49,214 nucleotides of DNA from contig JAUWWQ010000031.1 in assembly GCA_030616775.1 (NCBI GenBank), positions 1 to 49,214 on the forward strand, written 5' to 3'. Both the position numbers and the translations under genes were made by a program. The notes beneath the pieces were generated by a model. That model did no database searches, was not told the DNA's origin, and saw nothing but the letters and a program-made list of their open reading frames with translations. Of this stretch, positions 13,491 to 35,089 are shown one piece after another; the stretch's first letter is position 1, and each line of letters begins with the position of its first letter. This DNA comes from Planctomycetota bacterium. Its GTDB lineage: Bacteria > Planctomycetota > Phycisphaerae > UBA1845.

Positions 13491-13943
13491 ATGTTGGCAC
13501 TACGAGTCAATGGTTCGCACTCGATCAATCGGTTGCGAAGTGAAATGGATCGTCTGTTCGACAGTGCGTTCGAGGGGTTCCCGCGGCTGACCCGCGATGC
13601 GTGGTTCGCCCCGACCTCCCCGGCCGTGAACGTGTGGGAGGATACGGACAACGTTTACGCCGAGGCGGAGCTGCCGGGCTTGAAGCTGGATGACATCGAG
13701 CTTCTCGTCATGGGCGACGAACTGACTATCAAGGGAGAGCGCAAGGACGTTTGCGAGGACGAAGTGTCGTATCACCGCAAGGAGCGCGGTGCCGGCTCCT
13801 TCAACCGCGTATTCCGTTTGCCCGTAGGTGTCGACGCGGAGAAGGTGGAGGCGACGTTGCGTGACGGCGTTCTCACGGTGACCATGCCGAAGGCCGACGA
13901 AGCCAAGCCGCGCAAGATCGAGGTGAAGACCCTTCCGAGGTAG
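13491..13943 (+). CDS. Small heat-shock protein (Hsp20 family)
   Basis: A 150-residue ATP-independent holdase chaperone. The alpha-crystallin domain spans about residues 42-145: NVWEDTDNVYAEAELPG, DDIELLVMGDELTIKGER, then RVFRLPVGVDAEKVEA and the signature GVLTVTMPK. The N-terminus contains the RLRSEMDRLFD helix that drives oligomerisation. Length is typical for bacterial class A/B sHSPs. It has a strong AAGGAGGT ribosome site and a candidate sigma-54 promoter. The second sHSP follows 49 nt later, so the two are probably cotranscribed and may form mixed oligomers. Confidence 0.93.
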   Translation: MLALRVNGSHSINRLRSEMDRLFDSAFEGFPRLTRDAWFAPTSPAVNVWEDTDNVYAEAELPGLKLDDIELLVMGDELTIKGERKDVCEDEVSYHRKERGAGSFNRVFRLPVGVDAEKVEATLRDGVLTVTMPKADEAKPRKIEVKTLPR

Positions 13944-13992
13944 TCCAGCTACGTGACGGGAGTACCTCAGAACAAAGAAAGGAGATAGAGCC

Positions 13993-14391
13993 GTGACAAC
14001 GATGGCTATTGAGAAACCAGCAGAGCGAGAGATCGCACGTACTGAACCGACGTGGAACAGGCCGCAATTCCGGCCCAACGTGGACATTCTGGAGCGACCC
14101 GATGAGCTGACCGTGCTGGCTGACATGCCGGGCACCAGCGCAGAGGATGTCAACATTCAGTTCGAGAATGGAACGCTGAAACTCCATGGCAAGGTCAAGG
14201 ATCGGGAGCCGCAGGAGACGGGATACGTCTTGCAGGAGTACGGCGTTGGCGACTTCCACCGGACGTTCCAGGTGAGCGAGATCATCGATGCGGCGCGTAT
14301 CAGTGCCGAGTACGAGGACGGAGTTCTGATCCTGCATCTTCCGAAGACGGAGGCTGTCAAACCCCGGAAGATCGCCGTGAAGACGAACTAG
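13993..14391 (+). CDS. Small heat-shock protein (Hsp20 family), second copy
   Basis: A 132-residue Hsp20 starting at GTG 13993 with AAAGGAG about 9 nt upstream; an ATG four codons in is an alternative. The alpha-crystallin domain runs from NVDILERPDELTVLADMPG to the GVLILHLPK signature. It is divergent enough from the upstream paralogue (different N-terminus; GDFHRTFQV against GSFNRVFRL) that the duplication is old. Paired divergent sHSPs in one operon are common and usually co-assemble on unfolding clients. Confidence 0.92.
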   Translation: MTTMAIEKPAEREIARTEPTWNRPQFRPNVDILERPDELTVLADMPGTSAEDVNIQFENGTLKLHGKVKDREPQETGYVLQEYGVGDFHRTFQVSEIIDAARISAEYEDGVLILHLPKTEAVKPRKIAVKTN

Positions 14392-14553: not shown

Positions 14554-15777
14554 CTATCGGCTCTGGTGGAATAGGTTCTCGGCGTTCGGGCGGGGCGTGT
14601 TTTTCTTGTTGTCCCAATAGGGCGAAAGCTTGCGAAGATTTGCCACGATCTGTGGAAAGACTTCGATGATCCGGTCAATTTCCTCTTCAGTGTTGTACCG
14701 GCTGAGGCTGAACCGGACGGAGCCGTGAACGGCGGTGAATGGGACGTTCAGGGCTCTTAGCACGTGGGACGGTTCAAGTGACCCGGATGTGCAGGCTGAA
14801 CCGCTGGAGGCGCAGATTCCGTGGGCACTAAGCTGATACAGCATCCCCTCCCCCTCCACGTAATGACATGAAATGTTCAACGTGTTGGGAAGCCTGGTTG
14901 CGCCCTTGCCGTTCACCTGGACGCAAGGGACCTTCTTCTCAAGAGCCTTTTCCAGGCGGTCTCTGAGTCTTCGTATCCGCGCCTCTTCCTTTTCACGGTT
15001 TTCCATGGCAAGCGTCATGGCCCGGGCCAGGCCCACGATGTATGGTACGTTCTCCGTTCCTGCCCGTCTCCCTCCTTCCTGGTGTCCGCCAATCATGAAA
15101 GGCCGGCACGGTGTCCCCCGCCTGATGAAGAGCGCCCCGATTCCCTTGGGCGCGTGAAGCTTGTGCCCGGAGAAGGATAGAAGGTCTACGTGCCGGTACT
15201 CCCCCTCTAGATTGAACGGCATCTTGCCGACGGATTGCGTCGCGTCAGTGTGGAAGACGATGGACGGATCGGTTTCCTTGGTCAAGCGCGAGAGTTGCTC
15301 AATGGGGAAGATCACGCCTGTCTCGTTGTTGGCGTGCATGATGGTGACCAGGAGCGTATCTGGTCTAACGGCGCGCACAAACTGGCGGATGTCAAGATTG
15401 CCATCTCCATTGACCGGAAGGAAGGTTACGTCGTACCCGCTGCGCTGCAGATCCTTGCAGACCTCGAGCACGGCCGGGTGCTCTACGGAAGTCGTAATGA
15501 TGTGGCTCCGATTCGTGTTGGCTTTAGCCGTCCCGACAATGGCGGTGTTGTTGCTCTCCGTGGCACAGGAAGTGAAGAGGATTTGTTTGGCGTCGGTCAC
15601 GCCCAGATGTCCAGCGATTTCCTGTCGGGCCTGGGCGATCGCCGCTGCCGCGCCCCGCGCGGGTTCGTACATGGAGCTTGGATTGAAGTAGTTCTCAGTG
15701 AGAAACGGAGTCATCGCCTCGTACACTTCGGGCGCGATTCCTGTCGTAGCATTGTTGTCGGCGTAGATGATTCCCAT
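14554..15777 (-). CDS. nifS: Cysteine desulfurase NifS
   Basis: A 407-residue PLP enzyme that takes sulfur from cysteine for Fe-S cluster assembly. YADNNATTGIAPEV at the N-terminus, the PLP lysine in SFSGHKLHAPKG (about 205), and the persulfide cysteine in SGSACTSGSLEPSHVLRAL are all intact; the long active-site loop places it with group I (NifS/IscS). A C-terminal extension of about 20 residues is present. It follows nifU by only 15 nt, forming a nifU-nifS operon. No nitrogenase gene is visible, so it probably serves general or stress Fe-S assembly, as in Helicobacter. Confidence 0.95.
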   Translation of the reverse strand: MGIIYADNNATTGIAPEVYEAMTPFLTENYFNPSSMYEPARGAAAAIAQARQEIAGHLGVTDAKQILFTSCATESNNTAIVGTAKANTNRSHIITTSVEHPAVLEVCKDLQRSGYDVTFLPVNGDGNLDIRQFVRAVRPDTLLVTIMHANNETGVIFPIEQLSRLTKETDPSIVFHTDATQSVGKMPFNLEGEYRHVDLLSFSGHKLHAPKGIGALFIRRGTPCRPFMIGGHQEGGRRAGTENVPYIVGLARAMTLAMENREKEEARIRRLRDRLEKALEKKVPCVQVNGKGATRLPNTLNISCHYVEGEGMLYQLSAHGICASSGSACTSGSLEPSHVLRALNVPFTAVHGSVRFSLSRYNTEEEIDRIIEVFPQIVANLRKLSPYWDNKKNTPRPNAENLFHQSR

Positions 15778-15792
15778 GGGCTTGCCCCCATC

Positions 15793-16758
15793 CTATACTT
15801 CCACTTCGATGACCCTGATACGCTCGTCCACCATATCTTTCAGAGTCCGTTCCACCATCATCTTGAGGGTCCGGCTCGCCCCGGCACAGGCCGCGCACGC
15901 ACCGTGGAGGCGGCAGTAGACCAGCGTGTCCTTGATGTCGATGATCTCAACATCGCCGCCGTCCTTCTGGAGCATCGGGCGGATGTACTGGTCCACGGCC
16001 TTCTCGATTCTTTTGGCGAACTGATAGGGTGACACGGCGGGCTCCTCTTTCGTCACATCGGCACCGGCCTTGCTCGTCTTACGCGTAGCTCTCTGTGAGC
16101 CCTCGCCACTGCCCCATGTGTCGTCGAGAAGATCCTGCAACCCGCCTGGAACGTGATGGCAGGACATGCATGCTCCACCGGCCTTTACTGCGTTGGTGAC
16201 CTCAGGAATCGTGCGCAGGTTCAGCTCCTTGATCTTGCGCCTCAAATAGGGCTCACTCACAGAGAAGCACTTGCAGACGATTCGGCCTTCCTCCTGTTCA
16301 TCAGCATGCACATCTATGCCCAGCCGTTCCAGATCGACTCCCCGCTTCTGTGCCCAGTTGAACACGGCCGCTTCCAACGCCTCGGCCCCCATGACGGAAC
16401 AGTGGATCTTCTGCTCCGGCAGCCCTTCGAGGAACTCTACGATGTCTTTGTTCTGTATCTTCAGCGCCTCAATCGGCGTGTATCGTCCCTTATCGATCAG
16501 GGTACACAGCGCCTCCGAGGCGGCGATGGCTGATGTGCATCCAAAAGTCAGATACTTAGCCTCAACGATCACGTCCTTCGTGGGGTCCGTGCGGTGCCGC
16601 TCGACTCGGAAGGTAAAACGCATCGCGTCACCGCACACTATCGAGCCGTGCTCACCGAAGCCGTCCGGATCTTCGATCTCCCCAAGATGAGTCCCAGGCT
16701 TGCCGTGGACCGCATCCATGAAGAGCCGCGTCGTTTTTTCGCTGTAGTCCCACACCAT
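15793..16758 (-). CDS. nifU: Fe-S cluster scaffold protein NifU (three-domain)
   Basis: A 321-residue full-length NifU. The N-terminal IscU-like domain has its three cluster cysteines, C42 (IVCGD), C74 (TFGCTSA) and C120 (KIHCSVMG). The central BFD-like [2Fe-2S] domain has CKC (about 162-164) and CMSCH (about 198-202). The C-terminal Nfu domain carries CAACAG. It builds clusters with sulfur from NifS encoded immediately downstream. It has a strong GGAGG ribosome site and lies divergent from the PerR-like gene across a 525-bp region carrying the operator described at 16859-16887. In organisms without nitrogenase, this pair is the housekeeping or stress Fe-S system. Confidence 0.95.
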   Translation of the reverse strand: MVWDYSEKTTRLFMDAVHGKPGTHLGEIEDPDGFGEHGSIVCGDAMRFTFRVERHRTDPTKDVIVEAKYLTFGCTSAIAASEALCTLIDKGRYTPIEALKIQNKDIVEFLEGLPEQKIHCSVMGAEALEAAVFNWAQKRGVDLERLGIDVHADEQEEGRIVCKCFSVSEPYLRRKIKELNLRTIPEVTNAVKAGGACMSCHHVPGGLQDLLDDTWGSGEGSQRATRKTSKAGADVTKEEPAVSPYQFAKRIEKAVDQYIRPMLQKDGGDVEIIDIKDTLVYCRLHGACAACAGASRTLKMMVERTLKDMVDERIRVIEVEV

Positions 16759-16841
16759 GTCTGTCCTCCAAAGCGGGCTCCTGGGGCTCCATCACCCCGG
16801 CGTCGTTCCGCACTATACACTCATTTTTTCTCAAAAAGGCC

Positions 16842-16872
16842 TTGACAAGGCTTTCCTATTAGTAATGATAAT
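16842..16872 (+). promoter_or_regulatory. Possible plus-strand promoter overlapping the operator
   Basis: A perfect -35 hexamer TTGACA at 16842-16847 is followed by AT-rich -10 candidates (TGATAA/GATAAT, 16866-16872) with 18-19 nt spacing. The -10 would lie inside the inverted-repeat operator, the usual arrangement for repression. It could drive perR, about 400 bp away, or a lost gene. Confidence 0.45.
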
Positions 16873-16887
16873 GACTAGGATTACTAA
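16859..16887. promoter_or_regulatory. Inverted-repeat operator, Fur/PerR-box-like
   Basis: Perfect 8-bp arms TTAGTAAT (16859-16866) and ATTACTAA (16880-16887) are separated by 13 bp, so the arm centres are 21 bp or two helical turns apart. The overlapping 15-mer from 16866 (TGATAAT-G-ACTAGGA) matches the 7-1-7 Fur-family box TGATAAT-N-ATTATCA at 11 of 14 positions. It is a markedly AT-rich island in GC-rich DNA between divergent nifU and the PerR-like gene. Binding by that regulator is inferred; an Rrf2/IscR-type protein is an alternative. Confidence 0.6.
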
Positions 16888-16938
16888 ATACAGGCGGAAA
16901 ATGCCAAAAACGCGAACACCGCGGTACTGGAGGGTTAA

Positions 16939-16986
16939 GTGATACTGGACGAACTAGTCAAGGCCGGGTCGGCCCAGGGCGGCTGA
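16939..16986 (+). other. 15-codon mini-ORF with strong ribosome site
   Basis: GGAGGG (16929-16934) precedes a GTG at 16939 that opens a 15-codon frame (MILDELVKAGSAQGG) ending at TGA. It directly follows the operator/promoter. It may be a leader peptide or the surviving start of a deleted operator-controlled gene. Confidence 0.3.
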
Positions 16987-17283
16987 TCCTCACGACGACG
17001 GACAGCATCGACCACCCTGGAGAGTCCCCCGGTCGTTCGTGTAGGAAACTTGGCGTTGAGGAGCGCAGCCAAGCCATATGTGTTTCGACGCGGTGGCGAG
17101 AGAGGTGCACAGGGGCGCGTGAGGGCGTACTGGCGGATCTCTTTTGAGATGGGAAAAACCTGAATAGCCAATCCAGCGTTGAGCGTGGCGCGCCCCGGAT
17201 ACTCCAGGACTGGCTTAAAGCCGGTTCTGGAGGCGCCGTCAGCAGGAAGTCGAGAAGGTTTGCCTTCGTATGGTGTCATAGCA
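16987..17283. other. Non-coding stretch between operator and perR
   Basis: No supported gene is present between the mini-ORF and ATG 17284. The only structure seen is the 31-bp hairpin repeat at 17202-17232. Confidence 0.5.
17202..17232. repeat. 31-bp hairpin (REP-like)
   Basis: CTCCAGGACTGGCTT and AAGCCGGTTCTGGAG pair over 15 bp around a single central base, with only two G-T type mismatches that would still pair in RNA. It lies 52 bp upstream of the perR start, so it could be a REP element or a leader structure. No U-tract follows. Confidence 0.5.
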
Positions 17284-17730
17284 ATGGCGACCGGGAAAGC
17301 CCAGAGAAACACACGGCAGCGTCAGGTGGTGCTGGAGGAATTAAAGAAGCTCACCTCGCACCCGACGGCGGCTGATCTTTACGAGATTGCGAGGGCCCGC
17401 ATGCCCAAGATCAGCTTGGGGACCGTCTACCGGAACCTGGAGCTCCTCGCGGAGAACGGGGTCATTCAAAAACTCGAGATCGGTGGGTCCGAGGCCCGGT
17501 TCGACGGCAACCCGGAGCGGCACTACCACGTCCGTTGTGCTCGCTGCGAACGAGTGGATGATGTGCATGACTTGCCCGGCGGTTTCGTGAAACGCCCGGT
17601 CAAACATCTGAGCGGCTACGAGATTCTGGGCCTCCGCCTGGAGTTCATCGGAATCTGCCCCGAGTGCAGGAAGCGGTCGGAACCGGGGAGCGACGAAGTC
17701 GCGCCTCATGAGAGAGACCATACGAGATAG
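17284..17730 (+). CDS. perR: Fur-family peroxide-stress regulator, PerR-like
   Basis: A 148-residue winged-helix repressor from ATG 17284; the frame continues upstream, but the family N-terminus fits here (RQRQVVLEELKK). DNA-binding helix SLGTVYRNLELLAENG is present. All five PerR-type regulatory metal ligands align: H26, D74, H80, H82 and D93, where Fur would carry Glu at the last position. Aspartate there is what distinguishes peroxide-sensing PerR. Structural-zinc cysteines CARC (85/88) and CPEC are intact. It heads a long plus-strand series of peroxide and oxygen defence genes, which it plausibly represses. The ribosome site is weak. Confidence 0.85.
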   Translation: MATGKAQRNTRQRQVVLEELKKLTSHPTAADLYEIARARMPKISLGTVYRNLELLAENGVIQKLEIGGSEARFDGNPERHYHVRCARCERVDDVHDLPGGFVKRPVKHLSGYEILGLRLEFIGICPECRKRSEPGSDEVAPHERDHTR

Positions 17731-17805
17731 CGTGCGTCGGTGCGGACTACGCTGGGTCATCGCACCCGAGCAAACGGTTTTGAACAACAAAACGGAGCGT
17801 AAAAC

Positions 17806-18321
17806 ATGATGAACCCACAGATTCAGGACGCGTTCAACGAGCAGCTCAATGCGGAGCTCTTTTCGTCTTACCTGTATCTTTCAATGTCGGCGTACTTCGA
17901 GTCGCAGAATCTTAAGGGCATGGCCCACTGGATGCGGGTCCAGGCGCAGGAGGAGAACATGCATGGGATGAAGTTCTTCGACTTCATCAACGAGCGCGGT
18001 GGCAGAGTGGCTCTCGACAAGATAAAGGAGCCCAAGACGGAATGGAGTTCACCGTTGGACGTCTTTGAGGACACCTGCAAGCACGAGAGCAAGGTTACGG
18101 GTCTGATCAACGATCTGGTGGACCTTTCAGTTAAAGAGAAGGATCACGCAGCGAGCGCCTTCCTTCAATGGTTTGTCACGGAGCAGGTTGAGGAGGAGGC
18201 CACGGCTCAGGAGATCAGGGACAAGCTCAGACTTGTGAGTGACAATCCAGTTGCGCTGTTCATGATCGACCAGGAGCTGGGTCAGCGCGGGGTGCCGGCC
18301 TCTGGTCCGGCTCGGACATGA
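17806..18321 (+). CDS. ftnA: Non-heme ferritin
   Basis: A 171-residue iron-storage protein that assembles into a 24-mer and oxidises Fe(II) at a diiron ferroxidase centre. Ligand motifs are present: the first-helix glutamate in NEQLNAELFSSYLYLSM, the ExxH in QAQEENMHGMKFFDF, and QWFVTEQVEEEATA in helix 4. The start is at the first of two adjacent ATGs, behind GGAG. It lies 75 nt after perR and 34 nt before a ferritin-like protein, consistent with one transcription unit. Removing free iron limits Fenton chemistry. Confidence 0.95.
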   Translation: MMNPQIQDAFNEQLNAELFSSYLYLSMSAYFESQNLKGMAHWMRVQAQEENMHGMKFFDFINERGGRVALDKIKEPKTEWSSPLDVFEDTCKHESKVTGLINDLVDLSVKEKDHAASAFLQWFVTEQVEEEATAQEIRDKLRLVSDNPVALFMIDQELGQRGVPASGPART

Positions 18322-18355: not shown

Positions 18356-18856
18356 ATGACGATCGAAAAGGCGATACAAACGGCTATTGAACTTGAGAAC
18401 GAAGTACGCGATGTGTACAAGGCGGCGGCGAAGGAGGCGGTCGATCCGGTCGGCAAGCGAGTGTTCGCCGTACTGGCCGACGAGGAGCAGGGACACGTGA
18501 ATTACCTTCAGAGCCGGCTGGAAGAGTGGCGCAAGACCGGCAAGGTCAACCCGGTTGCGCTCGAGACGGCGGTCCCTTCTCGCGAGGTCATTGCCGAAGC
18601 AGCGGACAACGTGTCGGAAAGCATGTCCGATGTGGATCACGGGACTGAGCTGAAGATGCTCGGAATGGCGCTAGAAGCGGAGCGCAAGACCAGCAGCTTC
18701 TACAGGAAGATGGTCGCAGAGCTACCGGTGGAAGGGCAGAAGCTCTTTGAGCGGTTCGTGGAGATCGAGGAAGGCCACTTGGCCATCGTGCAGGCAGAGA
18801 TGGATTTCATAACCGGCACCGGAGCATGGTTCGACGTCCTCGAGGTTAAGCTGTGA
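18356..18856 (+). CDS. Ferritin-like/rubrerythrin-family diiron protein without rubredoxin domain
   Basis: A 166-residue four-helix-bundle protein; ATG 18356 sits behind TGAGGAG, while an upstream ATG at 18341 lacks a site. Two half-bundles each carry an E and an ExxH: IELENEVRDVY / DEEQGHVNY and LEAERKTSSFYRKM / EIEEGHLAIVQAE, giving a complete diiron site. It resembles the erythrin subset of rubrerythrins. Such proteins reduce peroxide or oxidise iron, but here the electron donor domain is separate, perhaps the rubredoxin-like protein encoded next. The C-terminus ends with a short hydrophobic strand (GAWFDVLEVKL). Confidence 0.88.
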   Translation: MTIEKAIQTAIELENEVRDVYKAAAKEAVDPVGKRVFAVLADEEQGHVNYLQSRLEEWRKTGKVNPVALETAVPSREVIAEAADNVSESMSDVDHGTELKMLGMALEAERKTSSFYRKMVAELPVEGQKLFERFVEIEEGHLAIVQAEMDFITGTGAWFDVLEVKL

Positions 18857-18898: not shown

Positions 18899-19234
18899 AT
18901 GAGAAAGTGGAAGTGTGGTGTGTGCGGCTACATTCATGACGGTGATGAGGCTCCGGCACGGTGTCCCAAGTGTGGCGCCGGCACTGAGAAGTTCGCGGCC
19001 CTGGATCAGAAGGCCGCTGGTCTGGTGGAGCGGTCGCGGCACACCAATGCCCTGCATTGCCGGCTGGCGAACCTGGGTCGCAAGATGGAACAGGTCTGCA
19101 AGGACGGCATCGAGGACAATCTGGATCCCGGTTGTGTGGATGTCTTCCAGAAGGCCCTGGCGCACAGCTACGAGATTATGAAACTGGCGATGACCGAGAT
19201 GCAGGCGCACATGGGCAAGGGCAAGTGGGGATAG
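18899..19234 (+). CDS. Rubredoxin-like domain fused to a helical tail
   Basis: A 111-residue protein. The first ~35 residues form a compact rubredoxin-type Fe(Cys)4 knuckle of the rubrerythrin kind: CGVCGYIHDGDEAPARCPKCG. The remaining ~75 residues (NALHCRLANLGRKMEQVC, SYEIMKLAMTEMQAHMGKG) look all-helical and contain two or three extra cysteines and several histidines. I do not recognise the tail as a named family. Its location between a rubredoxin-less ferritin-like protein and a peroxiredoxin suggests a dedicated electron carrier, by inference. It has a strong AAAGGAG site. Confidence 0.8.
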   Translation: MRKWKCGVCGYIHDGDEAPARCPKCGAGTEKFAALDQKAAGLVERSRHTNALHCRLANLGRKMEQVCKDGIEDNLDPGCVDVFQKALAHSYEIMKLAMTEMQAHMGKGKWG

Positions 19235-19272: not shown

Positions 19273-19346
19273 AATCGGCCAGATTGACGCTGGGGCAATT
19301 CGCGTGTCCTTCATCACTTTCATGAATCGAAAGGAGAATGCTGATC

Positions 19347-19937
19347 GTGTGTGAATTAGTCACTAAGGAAGCCCCTGACTTCGCGGCCCAGGCCGTGATG
19401 CCGGACAACACGTTTTCCGAGCTGAAGCTCTCGTCGTATCGGGGCAAGCATGTGGTCCTGTTCTTCTATCCGTTGGACTTCACATTCGTGTGTCCATCGG
19501 AGATTATCGCGTTTGACAAGGCGCTGGACAAGTTCAAGGAGAAGAACGCCGAGGTGATCGGTGTCTCGGTGGACTCTCACTTCACGCACCTGGCGTGGAA
19601 GAATACGCCACGCGAGAAGGGCGGCATCGGTAACGTACAGTACCCCATCGTGTCCGACCTCACGAAGGAGATTGCCCGTTCGTATGGTGTTCTGCTCAAC
19701 GACTCGGTGGCCCTGCGGGGTCTTTTCCTGATCGACAAGGAAGGGATCATCCGTCATGCCCTGATCAACGACCTGCCGCTGGGGCGCAACGTCGAGGAGG
19801 CCTTACGAGTGCTGGATGCCTTGCAGTTCACCGAGAAGCACGGCGAGGTATGCCCGGCCAACTGGCGGGAAGGTGAAGAGGCCATGAAACCCACTGCCGA
19901 CGGTGTGGCCAGCTACCTGGCCAAGCATGCGGGGTAG
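19347..19937 (+). CDS. Typical 2-Cys peroxiredoxin (AhpC/TSA family)
   Basis: A protein of about 196 residues that reduces hydrogen peroxide, organic peroxides and peroxynitrite. The peroxidatic cysteine lies in DFTFVCPSE and the resolving cysteine in HGEVCPANW, with the conserved PLDFTFVCP context and a C-terminal YF-less tail. Start choice: AAGGAG at 19331-19336 is only about one base from ATG 19338 but 10 nt from GTG 19347, and GTG gives [12 protein letters not shown], the usual family N-terminus. No AhpF is adjacent, so thioredoxin or rubredoxin is the likely reductant. Confidence 0.95.
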
Positions 19938-19985
19938 CGACACGGTTATGTGGTGACAAAAGGTCCATTCTCGAAGGAGAAAAAC

Positions 19986-20438
19986 ATGGCACTGGACACT
20001 GTGGACAAGATACTGGACTTTGCGATCGGACAAGAAGAGCACGCGGCGAAGTTCTACACTAGCCTGGCAGGTAAAATGGGTCACGAACATATGAAGAAGG
20101 TTCTTCTCGGCTTCGCTGAGGAAGAAAAGGGACACAAGGCCAAGCTTATGGCCGTCAAAGAAAGCAAGTTGATGCTGCCGGCGGAGCAACGCGTTCTCGA
20201 TCTCAAGATCGGCGACTATCTCGAGGAGGTGACCCTCTCGGCTGACCTGGATTACCGCGAAGCTCTTGTCCTGGCTATGAAAGCCGAGAAGGCGGCGTTC
20301 AAAGTATACAACGACCTGGCGTCGGCCACGGACGATCCCGGGTTGAAGGCAACCTTGCTGGGCTTAGCGCAGGAGGAGGCTAAGCACAAGCTGCGGTTTG
20401 AGATTGAGTACGATGACGAGATCCTCAAGGAAAACTAA
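19986..20438 (+). CDS. Ferritin-like/rubrerythrin-family diiron protein, second stand-alone copy
   Basis: A 150-residue four-helix protein from ATG 19986 behind GAAGGAG; the upstream ATG 19950 has no site. Diiron motifs are complete: IGQEEHAAKFYTSLA, FAEEEKGHKAKL, MKAEKAAFKVYNDLA and LAQEEAKHKLRFE. It lacks a rubredoxin domain and is clearly distinct in sequence from the 18356 protein. Iron oxidation or peroxide reduction is inferred from the site geometry of the family. It sits between the peroxiredoxin and the full-length rubrerythrin. Confidence 0.88.
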   Translation: MALDTVDKILDFAIGQEEHAAKFYTSLAGKMGHEHMKKVLLGFAEEEKGHKAKLMAVKESKLMLPAEQRVLDLKIGDYLEEVTLSADLDYREALVLAMKAEKAAFKVYNDLASATDDPGLKATLLGLAQEEAKHKLRFEIEYDDEILKEN

Positions 20439-20465
20439 GGCGTTTGAGAAACGTGAAGGGTGTGC

Positions 20466-21047
20466 ATGAGAATGAGCAGCTTAAAGGGAAGTCAGACAGA
20501 GAAGAATCTTCTTACCGCGTTTGCCGGCGAGTCTCAGGCAAGGAATCGCTACGCCTACTTCGCCAGCAAGGCGAAGAAGGAGGGCTTCGTCCAGATTGCG
20601 GACATCATCGAGGAGACCGCCAACCAGGAGAAGGAGCACGCCAAGCGGTTCTTCAAGTTCCTGGAAGGTGGGGACGTGGAAGTTCAGGCGGCGTTCCCGG
20701 CCGGGGTGATTGGCAGCACGGCCGAGAACCTCAAGGCCGCAGCCGGCGGCGAGCATTATGAATGGGAGAACATGTATCCCGAGTTCGCGCACGTCGCCCG
20801 CGAGGAAGGCTTTGAGGAGGTCGCAAGGGTGTTTGAGTCGGTGGCGGTAGCTGAGAAGCAGCACGAGAAACGATACCTCGGTCTGCTGGCGAACGTAGAG
20901 GCCGGCACGGTCTTCAAGAAGAAGGAGAAGGTTGTCTGGCGGTGCCGGAACTGCGGTTACCTGCATGAGGGCGAGGAGGCACCGGATTCGTGTCCGGCCT
21001 GCGCACATTCGCAGGCTCATTTCGAGCTGCTGGCGGAGAACTGGTAA
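20466..21047 (+). CDS. rbr: Rubrerythrin
   Basis: A classical two-domain rubrerythrin of about 193 residues, reducing hydrogen peroxide to water in anaerobes. The N-terminal diiron bundle includes LLTAFAGESQARNRYAYFA, ANQEKEHAKRFFKFL, GGEHYEWENMYPEF and VAVAEKQHEKRY. The C-terminal rubredoxin domain has CRNCGYLHEGEEAPDSCPAC. ATG 20466 follows GAAGGG at good spacing; ATG 20472 is an alternative. It is the only one of the three ferritin-like proteins here with its own rubredoxin domain. Confidence 0.96.
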   Translation: MRMSSLKGSQTEKNLLTAFAGESQARNRYAYFASKAKKEGFVQIADIIEETANQEKEHAKRFFKFLEGGDVEVQAAFPAGVIGSTAENLKAAAGGEHYEWENMYPEFAHVAREEGFEEVARVFESVAVAEKQHEKRYLGLLANVEAGTVFKKKEKVVWRCRNCGYLHEGEEAPDSCPACAHSQAHFELLAENW

Positions 21048-33370: not shown

Positions 33371-35089
33371 GTGAGTCTCTGGACGGCGTTGCTGGATGTA
33401 TTGATTCTGCTGCTGGCAGCGTTGCTGCTGGGTTCGCTGTGTGAGCGATTGAAGCAGAGTGCGCTCCTAGGCTACCTGCTCGCCGGGACGTTGCTGGGCC
33501 CCAACGCCTTGGACTGGATGCCGAATCACACAGCGGTGGCGACGATCGCGGAATTAGGCATTGCGCTGCTGCTGTTCACGATCGGACTTGAGTTTTCCTG
33601 GCGCAGATTGCGAAGCATCGGGCCGATCGCCCTCGGTGGAGGAACTGTTCAGGTGCTGCTGACCAGCGTCCTGGCGGCCGGGATCTGCCTAATGCTGGGG
33701 CTCGGGGGCCGGGCAGCGCTGGCCTTCGGCGCCATGATCGCATTGAGCAGCACCGCCTGCGTGGTGCGCCTGCTGGTGAGCCGCGCGGAGATCGACGGCG
33801 TCTACGGCCGCAACGCGCTGGGCATCCTGCTCCTCCAGGACATCGCGGTGGTTCCGCTGGTGCTCGTGGTAACCGCGTTGGGAGGCGAAGGTCAGGGTTC
33901 GATGGCGCAGATCGGCTTGGAGATGGGCCGGGCGGTCGTGGTGGCGGCAGTTCTGGTGGGGGCGCTTTTCCTGCTGCTCAACTACCTCGTGCCGTTGTTG
34001 TTAAACACCGAACAAGCGGCGCGGAATCGCGATTTGCCCATTCTGCTGGCGATTGTCACGGGTGTGGGGACAGCATGGGTGTCACACACTTTGGGCCTTT
34101 CGCCGGTGCTCGGGGCGTTCATCGCGGGTTTGTTGCTGGCTGAGTCCCCCTTCGCCACGCAAATCCGCGCTGACATTGCCTCGGTGCGCACGCTGTTCGT
34201 GACTCTGTTTTTCAGTTCGATCGGGATGTTGTGCAATCCGGCGTGGGTGCTGGAACATTGGGCAACGGTGGCTGGCGTGGTAGCGGTCATCGTGTTTGGC
34301 AAGTCGATCGTGATATTCGGCGTGGGGCGTCTGTTCCGCTGCTCGCCGGGCCATGCGGTTGCGACGGGCATTTGCCTGGCCCAGGTGGGCGAGTTTTCAT
34401 TCGTGCTTGCCGAGGTGGCGCGACAGGGGCAGTTGATTGACAGCGGCTTGTTTGAGTTGATCGTTGCGTCCACGATTGGAACGCTGTTCCTCACGCCGTA
34501 CCTGGTGGCTGCCGCGCCGCATGTTGCGAGGGCCGTCGGCAGGCTTTCGGCTTGGCGCACCCAGGCACTACCCCGGCAGCCTGAACCGTTGGCCGAGTCC
34601 ACCGCAAAGATGAGCGGGCATATTGTGATCGTGGGTTTTGGTCCTGCGGGCCAGTGCGTTGCCAGAGCACTCGAACAAGACCACCAGGCGCTCGTTGTGG
34701 TCGTCGAGTTGAACGCCAAGTCAGCGGACGTCGCTCGGGGCTACGGCCTGCGGACGTACATCGGTGACGCAACCAGCCCGGAAATGTTGGAACACTTGTG
34801 CGTCGGAGCGGCTAAGGTCGTCGCGGTGACAATTCCCGATCCAGCCGCTGCCCGGCAAATCATCGAAGGAGTTCGTTCCCTGGGAACGGATACGTCAATC
34901 ATCGCCCGGGCGCGGTATCATAGGTATCGTTCGGAATTGGCCCTTGCCGGAGCGGTCGCGGTCATCGACGAGGAAGAACAGGTCGGCCTCCAGATGGCCT
35001 CGGCGGTGCAAGAGAAACTGCGGACCGGCGTGGCCCACGGTTACCCGAAGCCCCCCCCGGGTATCGAACCAGCAGACACCAGGTGGTGA
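33371..35089 (+). CDS. Kef-type (CPA2) cation:proton antiporter with TrkA-N domain
   Basis: A 572-residue protein starting at GTG behind AGGAGA. Residues 1-380 are a Na_H_exchanger domain with 12-13 helices (ELGIALLLFTIGLEFSWRRL, LLLQDIAVVPLVL, SPVLGAFIAGLLLAESPF). From about residue 415 an RCK/TrkA-N Rossmann domain begins (HIVIVGFGPAGQCVARAL). The layout is that of KefB/C/YbaL potassium efflux systems, which acidify the cytoplasm during electrophile stress, here without a KefF/G helper. It closes the plus-strand run. Confidence 0.9.
   Translation: MSLWTALLDVLILLLAALLLGSLCERLKQSALLGYLLAGTLLGPNALDWMPNHTAVATIAELGIALLLFTIGLEFSWRRLRSIGPIALGGGTVQVLLTSVLAAGICLMLGLGGRAALAFGAMIALSSTACVVRLLVSRAEIDGVYGRNALGILLLQDIAVVPLVLVVTALGGEGQGSMAQIGLEMGRAVVVAAVLVGALFLLLNYLVPLLLNTEQAARNRDLPILLAIVTGVGTAWVSHTLGLSPVLGAFIAGLLLAESPFATQIRADIASVRTLFVTLFFSSIGMLCNPAWVLEHWATVAGVVAVIVFGKSIVIFGVGRLFRCSPGHAVATGICLAQVGEFSFVLAEVARQGQLIDSGLFELIVASTIGTLFLTPYLVAAAPHVARAVGRLSAWRTQALPRQPEPLAESTAKMSGHIVIVGFGPAGQCVARALEQDHQALVVVVELNAKSADVARGYGLRTYIGDATSPEMLEHLCVGAAKVVAVTIPDPAAARQIIEGVRSLGTDTSIIARARYHRYRSELALAGAVAVIDEEEQVGLQMASAVQEKLRTGVAHGYPKPPPGIEPADTRW

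Follow-up and report, generated by a model that had tools for sequence, protein, structure and literature searches.

In the predictions reported for Desulfovibrio vulgaris, Desulfovibrio desulfuricans and Desulfotalea psychrophila, PerR boxes are 19-bp palindromes such as AATAGGAATCGTTCCTGTT (PMC545781). The consensus sequences given there for the delta-proteobacterial boxes are AwnAGnAAtngTTnCTnwT and GtTAATgATnATcATTAaC, and the boxes lie upstream of perR, rubrerythrin and related genes, forming mainly local regulons; the same source describes a Geobacter palindrome of different consensus that overlaps a candidate -10 element, and quotes the Bacillus subtilis PerR box as TTATAATNATTATAA (PMC545781). 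With regard to the regulator, asparagine 61 and aspartate 104 are presented as canonical for PerR, the former for recognising the B. subtilis-type box and the latter as pivotal for H2O2 sensitivity (PMC8638851). For Fur, it has been described that overlapping units may hold several dimers per site (PMC3293774). A limited literature search on the PerR regulon in Planctomycetes gave no description among the matches listed. Here we describe a predicted PerR operator in a 49,214-nucleotide stretch of DNA from a member of the Planctomycetota (the window, analysed at its full length), whose assembly comprises 4.45 Mb.

The inverted repeat and its promoter

The inverted repeat TTAGTAATgataatgactaggATTACTAA is located exactly where the original prediction had placed it, between divergent nifU and perR genes, and its most plausible role is as operator of the perR promoter. 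The features of this region are:

14554..15777, minus strand: nifS cysteine desulfurase gene, downstream of nifU (profile matches)
15793..16758, minus strand: nifU-type Fe-S scaffold gene, the divergent neighbour, whose link to the operator is not supported (profile matches)
16842..16847, plus strand: -35 element TTGACA of the perR promoter (sequence, promoter scan, ortholog comparison)
16859..16887, no strand assigned: 29-bp inverted repeat, predicted PerR operator (sequence, motif scan, shuffles)
16864..16869, plus strand: predicted -10 hexamer AATGAT, inside the operator (consensus match only)
17284..17730, plus strand: perR (Fur-family profile); no other Fur-family gene was found in the assembly

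With up to three mismatches allowed in the 16 arm bases, the arms occur once in the window (0.01 expected), and the genome scan that had been proposed as a check returned 16859-16887 as the sole copy in the whole assembly, against two places for the reversed control. The 525-bp intergenic stretch between nifU and perR holds one repeat with arms of at least 8 bp and a spacer of at most 20 bp. Because 38 of 400 dinucleotide shuffles of this stretch contain such a repeat of any composition, a perfect 8-bp inverted repeat alone is weak evidence; no shuffle (0/400) holds one with at least 65% A+T. Thirteen such repeats are present in the window and the operator is the only one reaching 65% A+T, its content of 22/29 being equalled by 0.016% of the window's 29-mers. 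The overlapping Fur-type 7-1-7 box, announced with 11 of 14 matches, was recovered as TGATAAT-G-ACTAGGA at 16866-16880, with three mismatches. The claim that the repeat lies upstream of both nifU and perR stands as far as position is concerned, at 100 bp from the nifU start and 396 bp from the perR start; control of nifU is another matter, to which we return below.

A promoter scan of 16700-17350 pairs TTGACA with AATGAT at 16864-16869 (16 nt spacing, 10 of 12 matches), and for this reason the predicted -10 falls inside the palindrome, in agreement with the overlap that had been proposed. This pair was the only promoter-like match on the plus strand, and no sigma-70-like promoter was found on the minus strand of the same interval. 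Among the perR orthologs analysed below, 18 of 25 have TTGAC 17-42 nt before the box centre, and in one of them (L038) TTGACA is followed, 9 nt on, by a near-perfect palindrome of 29 bp, TTATCGCTAATAatatgTATTAGCGATAA.

Conservation and phasing of the box at perR orthologs

Proteins of the window were compared by tblastn with 46 loci around FUR-family genes, and the 26 loci with at least 41% identity, holding 27 perR genes, were analysed for the motif; loci at 40% or below, or without a match, were left out. Before the motif was trained, two perR genes were set aside, L037a, which lies directly behind a coding gene, and L132, which has no visible box; scored after training, they gave -4.3 and 2.3 bits, that is, no box. 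The 25 remaining upstreams, with the window excluded, yielded the palindromic motif AATAgTAATcATTAcTATT. In a leave-one-out analysis, slightly biased in its own favour because the joint motif had supplied the site positions, the top-scoring site of the whole locus lay at most 150 bp upstream of perR in 22/25 cases at widths 19 and 23 and in 23/25 at width 29. The failures were L041 and L123 at all widths, where no convincing site was found upstream of perR, and L037, whose site took second rank at widths 19 and 23. If the two genes set aside are also scored as failures, 22-23 of 27 perR genes carry the box. The 25 orthologs are not all independent, since L126/L127 and L130/L131 are close relatives (one genus). 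The motif whose presence at related loci the original prediction had made decisive is a Fur-type palindrome found at 22-23 of the 25 perR orthologs, and in the window, too, perR is preceded by an AT-rich palindrome, about 19 bp long, that overlaps its promoter. The PerR/Fur-type autoregulation suggested at the outset may thus be regarded as a well-supported prediction, on the strength of site conservation at orthologous perR promoters.

When the window was scanned with this model, trained without it, the three best sites were those at 16858, 16864 and 16870, phased by 6 bp; the next best scored 8.0 bits at 34919:

16858..16876, no strand assigned: 19-bp PerR box 1 (15.0 bits, best of the window)
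16864..16882, no strand assigned: 19-bp PerR box 2 (12.8 bits), containing the 7-1-7 match TGATAATgACTAGGA at 16866-16880
16870..16888, no strand assigned: 19-bp PerR box 3 (9.6 bits, weakest of the three)

A second box 6 bp away from the first, of at least 9 bits, was present in 17 of 25 orthologs, and a third phased box of at least 9 bits in none of the 25; this threshold was chosen after the scores had been seen. Outside the perR upstreams, 17 chance sites of at least 9 bits, 13 of them of at least 9.6, occurred among 205,916 positions scanned in the ortholog loci. Since the motif resembles itself shifted by 6, box 3 deserves the least confidence. The operator of L127, TTAGTAATGATAATGGTTACTAA, measures 23 bp; it shares the 7-bp arms of the window's repeat and places them 6 bp closer together. 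As two boxes occur in 17/25 relatives and three in none, the 29-bp spacing probably reflects a 23-bp box of two units extended by a further unit of 6 bp, which suggests an operator that apparently changes length by a whole unit of 6 bp.

Beyond perR, the simplest reading is a local regulon. The pattern WTARTAATNATTAYTAW, which recovered the perR sites of three genomes (G000, the genome of the window, G002 and G454), occurs at 12 places in the window's own genome versus 13 for the control. The Fur 7-1-7 pattern with three mismatches occurs there at 57 places versus 12 for the reversed control; of 14 other such places that were inspected, 11 lie in coding-like frames and three are seemingly intergenic, and none of the 14 precedes an obvious stress, iron or iron-uptake gene. 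One of these reaches 14.7 bits but overlies the start codon of a gene, identified by eye as cytidylate-kinase-like, and was regarded as a chance site. Separately, two genomes belonging to the same genus share an identical 17-mer, AGAGTAATGATTACGGT, the two copies being oppositely oriented (G000:C106:33518-33534 and G002:C1:663457-663473).

The regulator, its neighbours and the leader

The product of perR matches the Fur family (PF01475, 5.3e-26; match at 17305-17643), and since it is the single Fur-family gene found in an assembly that is 98% complete, a separate Fur or Zur appears to be missing. As a side observation, no Fur-family match was obtained in 34 of the 120 genomes examined. The closest solved relative is B. 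subtilis PerR (2fe3, 91.5 bits). The regulatory ligands of PerR are H37, D85, H91, H93 and D104, accompanied by structural CxxC pairs. All of them are present in the window protein: H37, D85, H91, H93 and the four CxxC cysteines are invariant across the 28 PerR sequences, and D104 is conserved in 27/28, L131 having N. Residue 61 is not asparagine; it is R in 28/28, as in B. subtilis Fur. The retention of D104 together with R61 leads to the expectation of a peroxide sensor with a more Fur-like box, and a more Fur-like box is what the sites show; specificity of the B. subtilis PerR type is not claimed. The NCBIfam PerR equivalog cut-offs are not reached (NF052545, 112 vs 180 bits; NF047406, 99.8 vs 200), and the name PerR therefore rests on the ligands, the gene order and the nearest structure. 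The genes that follow perR are:

17806..18321, plus strand: ferritin (profile match)
18356..18856, plus strand: rubrerythrin-like protein (profile match)
18899..19234, plus strand: protein with a rubredoxin-like domain, RUBY_RBDX (profile match)
19338..19937, plus strand: peroxiredoxin, AhpC/TSA (profile matches)
19950..20438, plus strand: rubrerythrin/ferritin-like protein (profile match)
20460..21047, plus strand: rubrerythrin (over its NCBIfam cut-off)

The rubrerythrin gene is followed by one for an ArsP-type permease. Ferritin, rubrerythrin, peroxiredoxin or rubredoxin-like genes stand behind perR on the same strand in 20 of the 26 loci; L105 has them on the other strand, L130 and L131 have the permease only, and L041, L104 and L132 show none.

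The distance between operator and perR sets the window apart. From the end of the box to the start of the perR match there are 12-63 nt in 22 of 25 orthologs, the exceptions being L041 (-1), L123 (70) and L125 (101). In the window, the 396 bp that separate the operator from the working perR would be accounted for by decay of the adjacent copy, the intact one lying farther on:

16903..17012, plus strand: decayed 5′ piece of a perR copy, frame broken (semi-global alignment, L102 promoter alignment)

Aligned semi-globally with the perR start, these 110 nt score 25.0, against a mean of 7.7 and a maximum of 17.5 in shuffles (0/1000 as good); among 3152 segments of the 49 kb compared in this way, the perR start scores highest, and the best unrelated one reaches 19.5. 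Among ortholog perR genes, that of L102 scores 23.5 and the others 4.5-16. L102 belongs to the same genus (genome 71% complete, one Fur-family match) and its perR, 77% identical, lies directly behind its operator. Its promoter aligns with 16825-16933 over a T-rich tract, TTGACA and the operator and into the perR start, with 82 of 103 aligned bases identical and a score of 39 versus a maximum of 21 in 1000 shuffles. This alignment indicates that promoter and operator of the window are orthologous to those of L102 perR, and that the perR copy expected behind the window operator is broken, an intact perR coming after it. The semi-global test on 110 nt and the L102 promoter alignment thus support the reading of this piece as a perR remnant. 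Other tests gave fainter signals: a stringent nucleotide alignment with the window perR was weak (9/300 shuffles as good) and gave no signal with most orthologs, a nucleotide profile gave a weak 1.8 bits, and a relaxed local alignment of the whole leader was matched by 1/500 shuffles. Because this last alignment, at 35.5 versus 34.0 for the best of 863 unrelated stretches, is not above background past 17012, nothing is claimed beyond that position. At 5430-6438 of L037, two intact tandem perR genes are found, from which it follows that perR duplication occurs in the family; the L037 operator differs in preceding the second of the two intact copies.

The leader beyond the remnant (17013-17283) is of no recognisable origin: a search of 60 genomes gave nothing convincing, the best E value being 0.006 across 30 bases. 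The whole 525-bp intergenic stretch matched only itself in 114 genomes of the order, a search that was insensitive because five candidates per genome were scored and the L102 homology was missed. The leader folds better than most shuffles (z -2.2, 2/100 as good) and matched no RNA family, a Rfam search of 16700-17800 giving nothing near the gathering score. A strong hairpin without a T-run, CCAGGACTGGCTTAAAGCCGGTTCTGG, unique in the genome, lies at 17204-17230, some 55 nt upstream of perR. By eye, no good Shine-Dalgarno sequence precedes the start of the intact perR, and as this start also lies 396 nt downstream, expression of perR from the operator promoter can only be inferred.

Weighing the explanations and comparison with known systems

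From the evidence above, the repeat is very probably the operator of the perR promoter, through which PerR would repress its own gene until peroxide releases it, with perR set at a distance by a remnant of itself. Metal-loaded PerR dimers would occupy overlapping Fur-type boxes set 6 bp apart, three in this operator and often two in relatives, and, lying across the -10 region, would block RNA polymerase. Peroxide would oxidise PerR, which would leave the operator, and perR and the ferritin, rubrerythrin and peroxiredoxin genes behind it could then be transcribed across the leader. The copy directly behind the promoter would have decayed to its 5′ remnant, the intact copy farther on taking the role of regulator. 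One may speculate further, with rather little probability, that the third phased unit was gained while the adjacent copy decayed, so that a remnant leader lowering PerR output was offset by an extra unit tightening repression, a compensated rewiring of a peroxide circuit with one regulator.

The original prediction had also coupled the site to Fe-S assembly, and a PerR operator shared with divergent nifU-nifS, tying Fe-S assembly to peroxide stress, would suit a nifU that starts only 100 bp away on the other strand. Two other genomes of the order also show peroxide-type genes or domains upstream of nifU, a rubrerythrin-like gene in L157 (5477-7053) and a rubredoxin-like domain in L158 (4590-5665), which means that the window is not alone in having peroxide genes next to those for Fe-S assembly; in both, however, the neighbourhood exists without this operator. 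Neither the site nor perR was found conserved next to nifU. No NifU or NifS match was obtained by tblastn in the 46 FUR-family loci (each 3.8-12.4 kb), and NifU matches at E 1e-40 or better occur in 7/120 genomes, own included. Upstream of the two close nifU orthologs, in G025 and G092 (78% and 70-71% identical), no convincing box was seen, and neither genome, at 84% and 87% completeness, yielded a Fur-family match. In none of six nifU loci of relatives does a convincing box precede nifU: their best motif scores are 2.2-9.3 bits, and when the top three sites of each locus are considered, a single one, of 1.4 bits in L156, falls in the 200 bp in front of nifU. With the minus strand also devoid of a promoter in the scan, the coupling was not borne out and a shared operator is unlikely. 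Beside nifS, two adjacent Hsp20 small heat-shock genes were seen at 13491-14391.

A different sensing role for the same protein would make the repeat a Fur-type iron operator, the single Fur-family protein controlling ferritin and rubrerythrin genes by iron status. The lack of any other Fur-family gene among those found, the Fur-like R61 of all 28 sequences, the 7-1-7 core and its excess over the control in the genome agree with this, but D104, pivotal for H2O2 sensitivity in the account of PMC8638851, is kept in all but one sequence, peroxide-detoxifying genes are among those downstream, no inspected 7-1-7 place precedes an obvious iron-uptake gene and the ortholog-like pattern stays at control level, all of which makes iron sensing quite improbable. 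Three Rrf2-family genes are present in the genome, and nifU-nifS would be a plausible target for one of them; yet across genomes the site accompanies perR and not nifU, and the motif resembles Fur-family boxes, so that an operator of the Rrf2/IscR type, or of another unrelated regulator, is very hard to credit. A chance palindrome in an AT-rich promoter could explain arms of this length, as the shuffles of any composition show, but not an AT-rich repeat conserved at orthologous promoters, and is the least probable reading of all.

The perR operator thus favoured can be compared with three described systems. It is of the kind predicted as PerR boxes in Desulfovibrio and Desulfotalea, as these are presented in PMC545781, from which it differs by its Planctomycetota host, its three phased units and the intervening decayed piece of perR. 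B. subtilis PerR is the regulator's closest solved structure by sequence and has the same metal and zinc ligands, and its box has the same 7-1-7 symmetry as the site; in contrast, residue 61 is R and not N, and the box halves read TGATAAT and AGTAAT rather than TTATAAT. Like the E. coli-type Fur box GATAATGATNATCATTATC, in the description of PMC3293774, it consists of overlapping units phased by 6 bp, whereas its neighbours include peroxide defence and its regulator carries the PerR residue D104. In conclusion, the comparison argues well for what appears to be an ordinary autoregulatory PerR operator whose unusual details are the extra phased unit and the perR remnant, suggesting that a regulator gene has become separated from its operator by a degenerate copy of itself, and it provides a predicted PerR box and a predicted autoregulated peroxide/ferritin operon for a Planctomycetota lineage.
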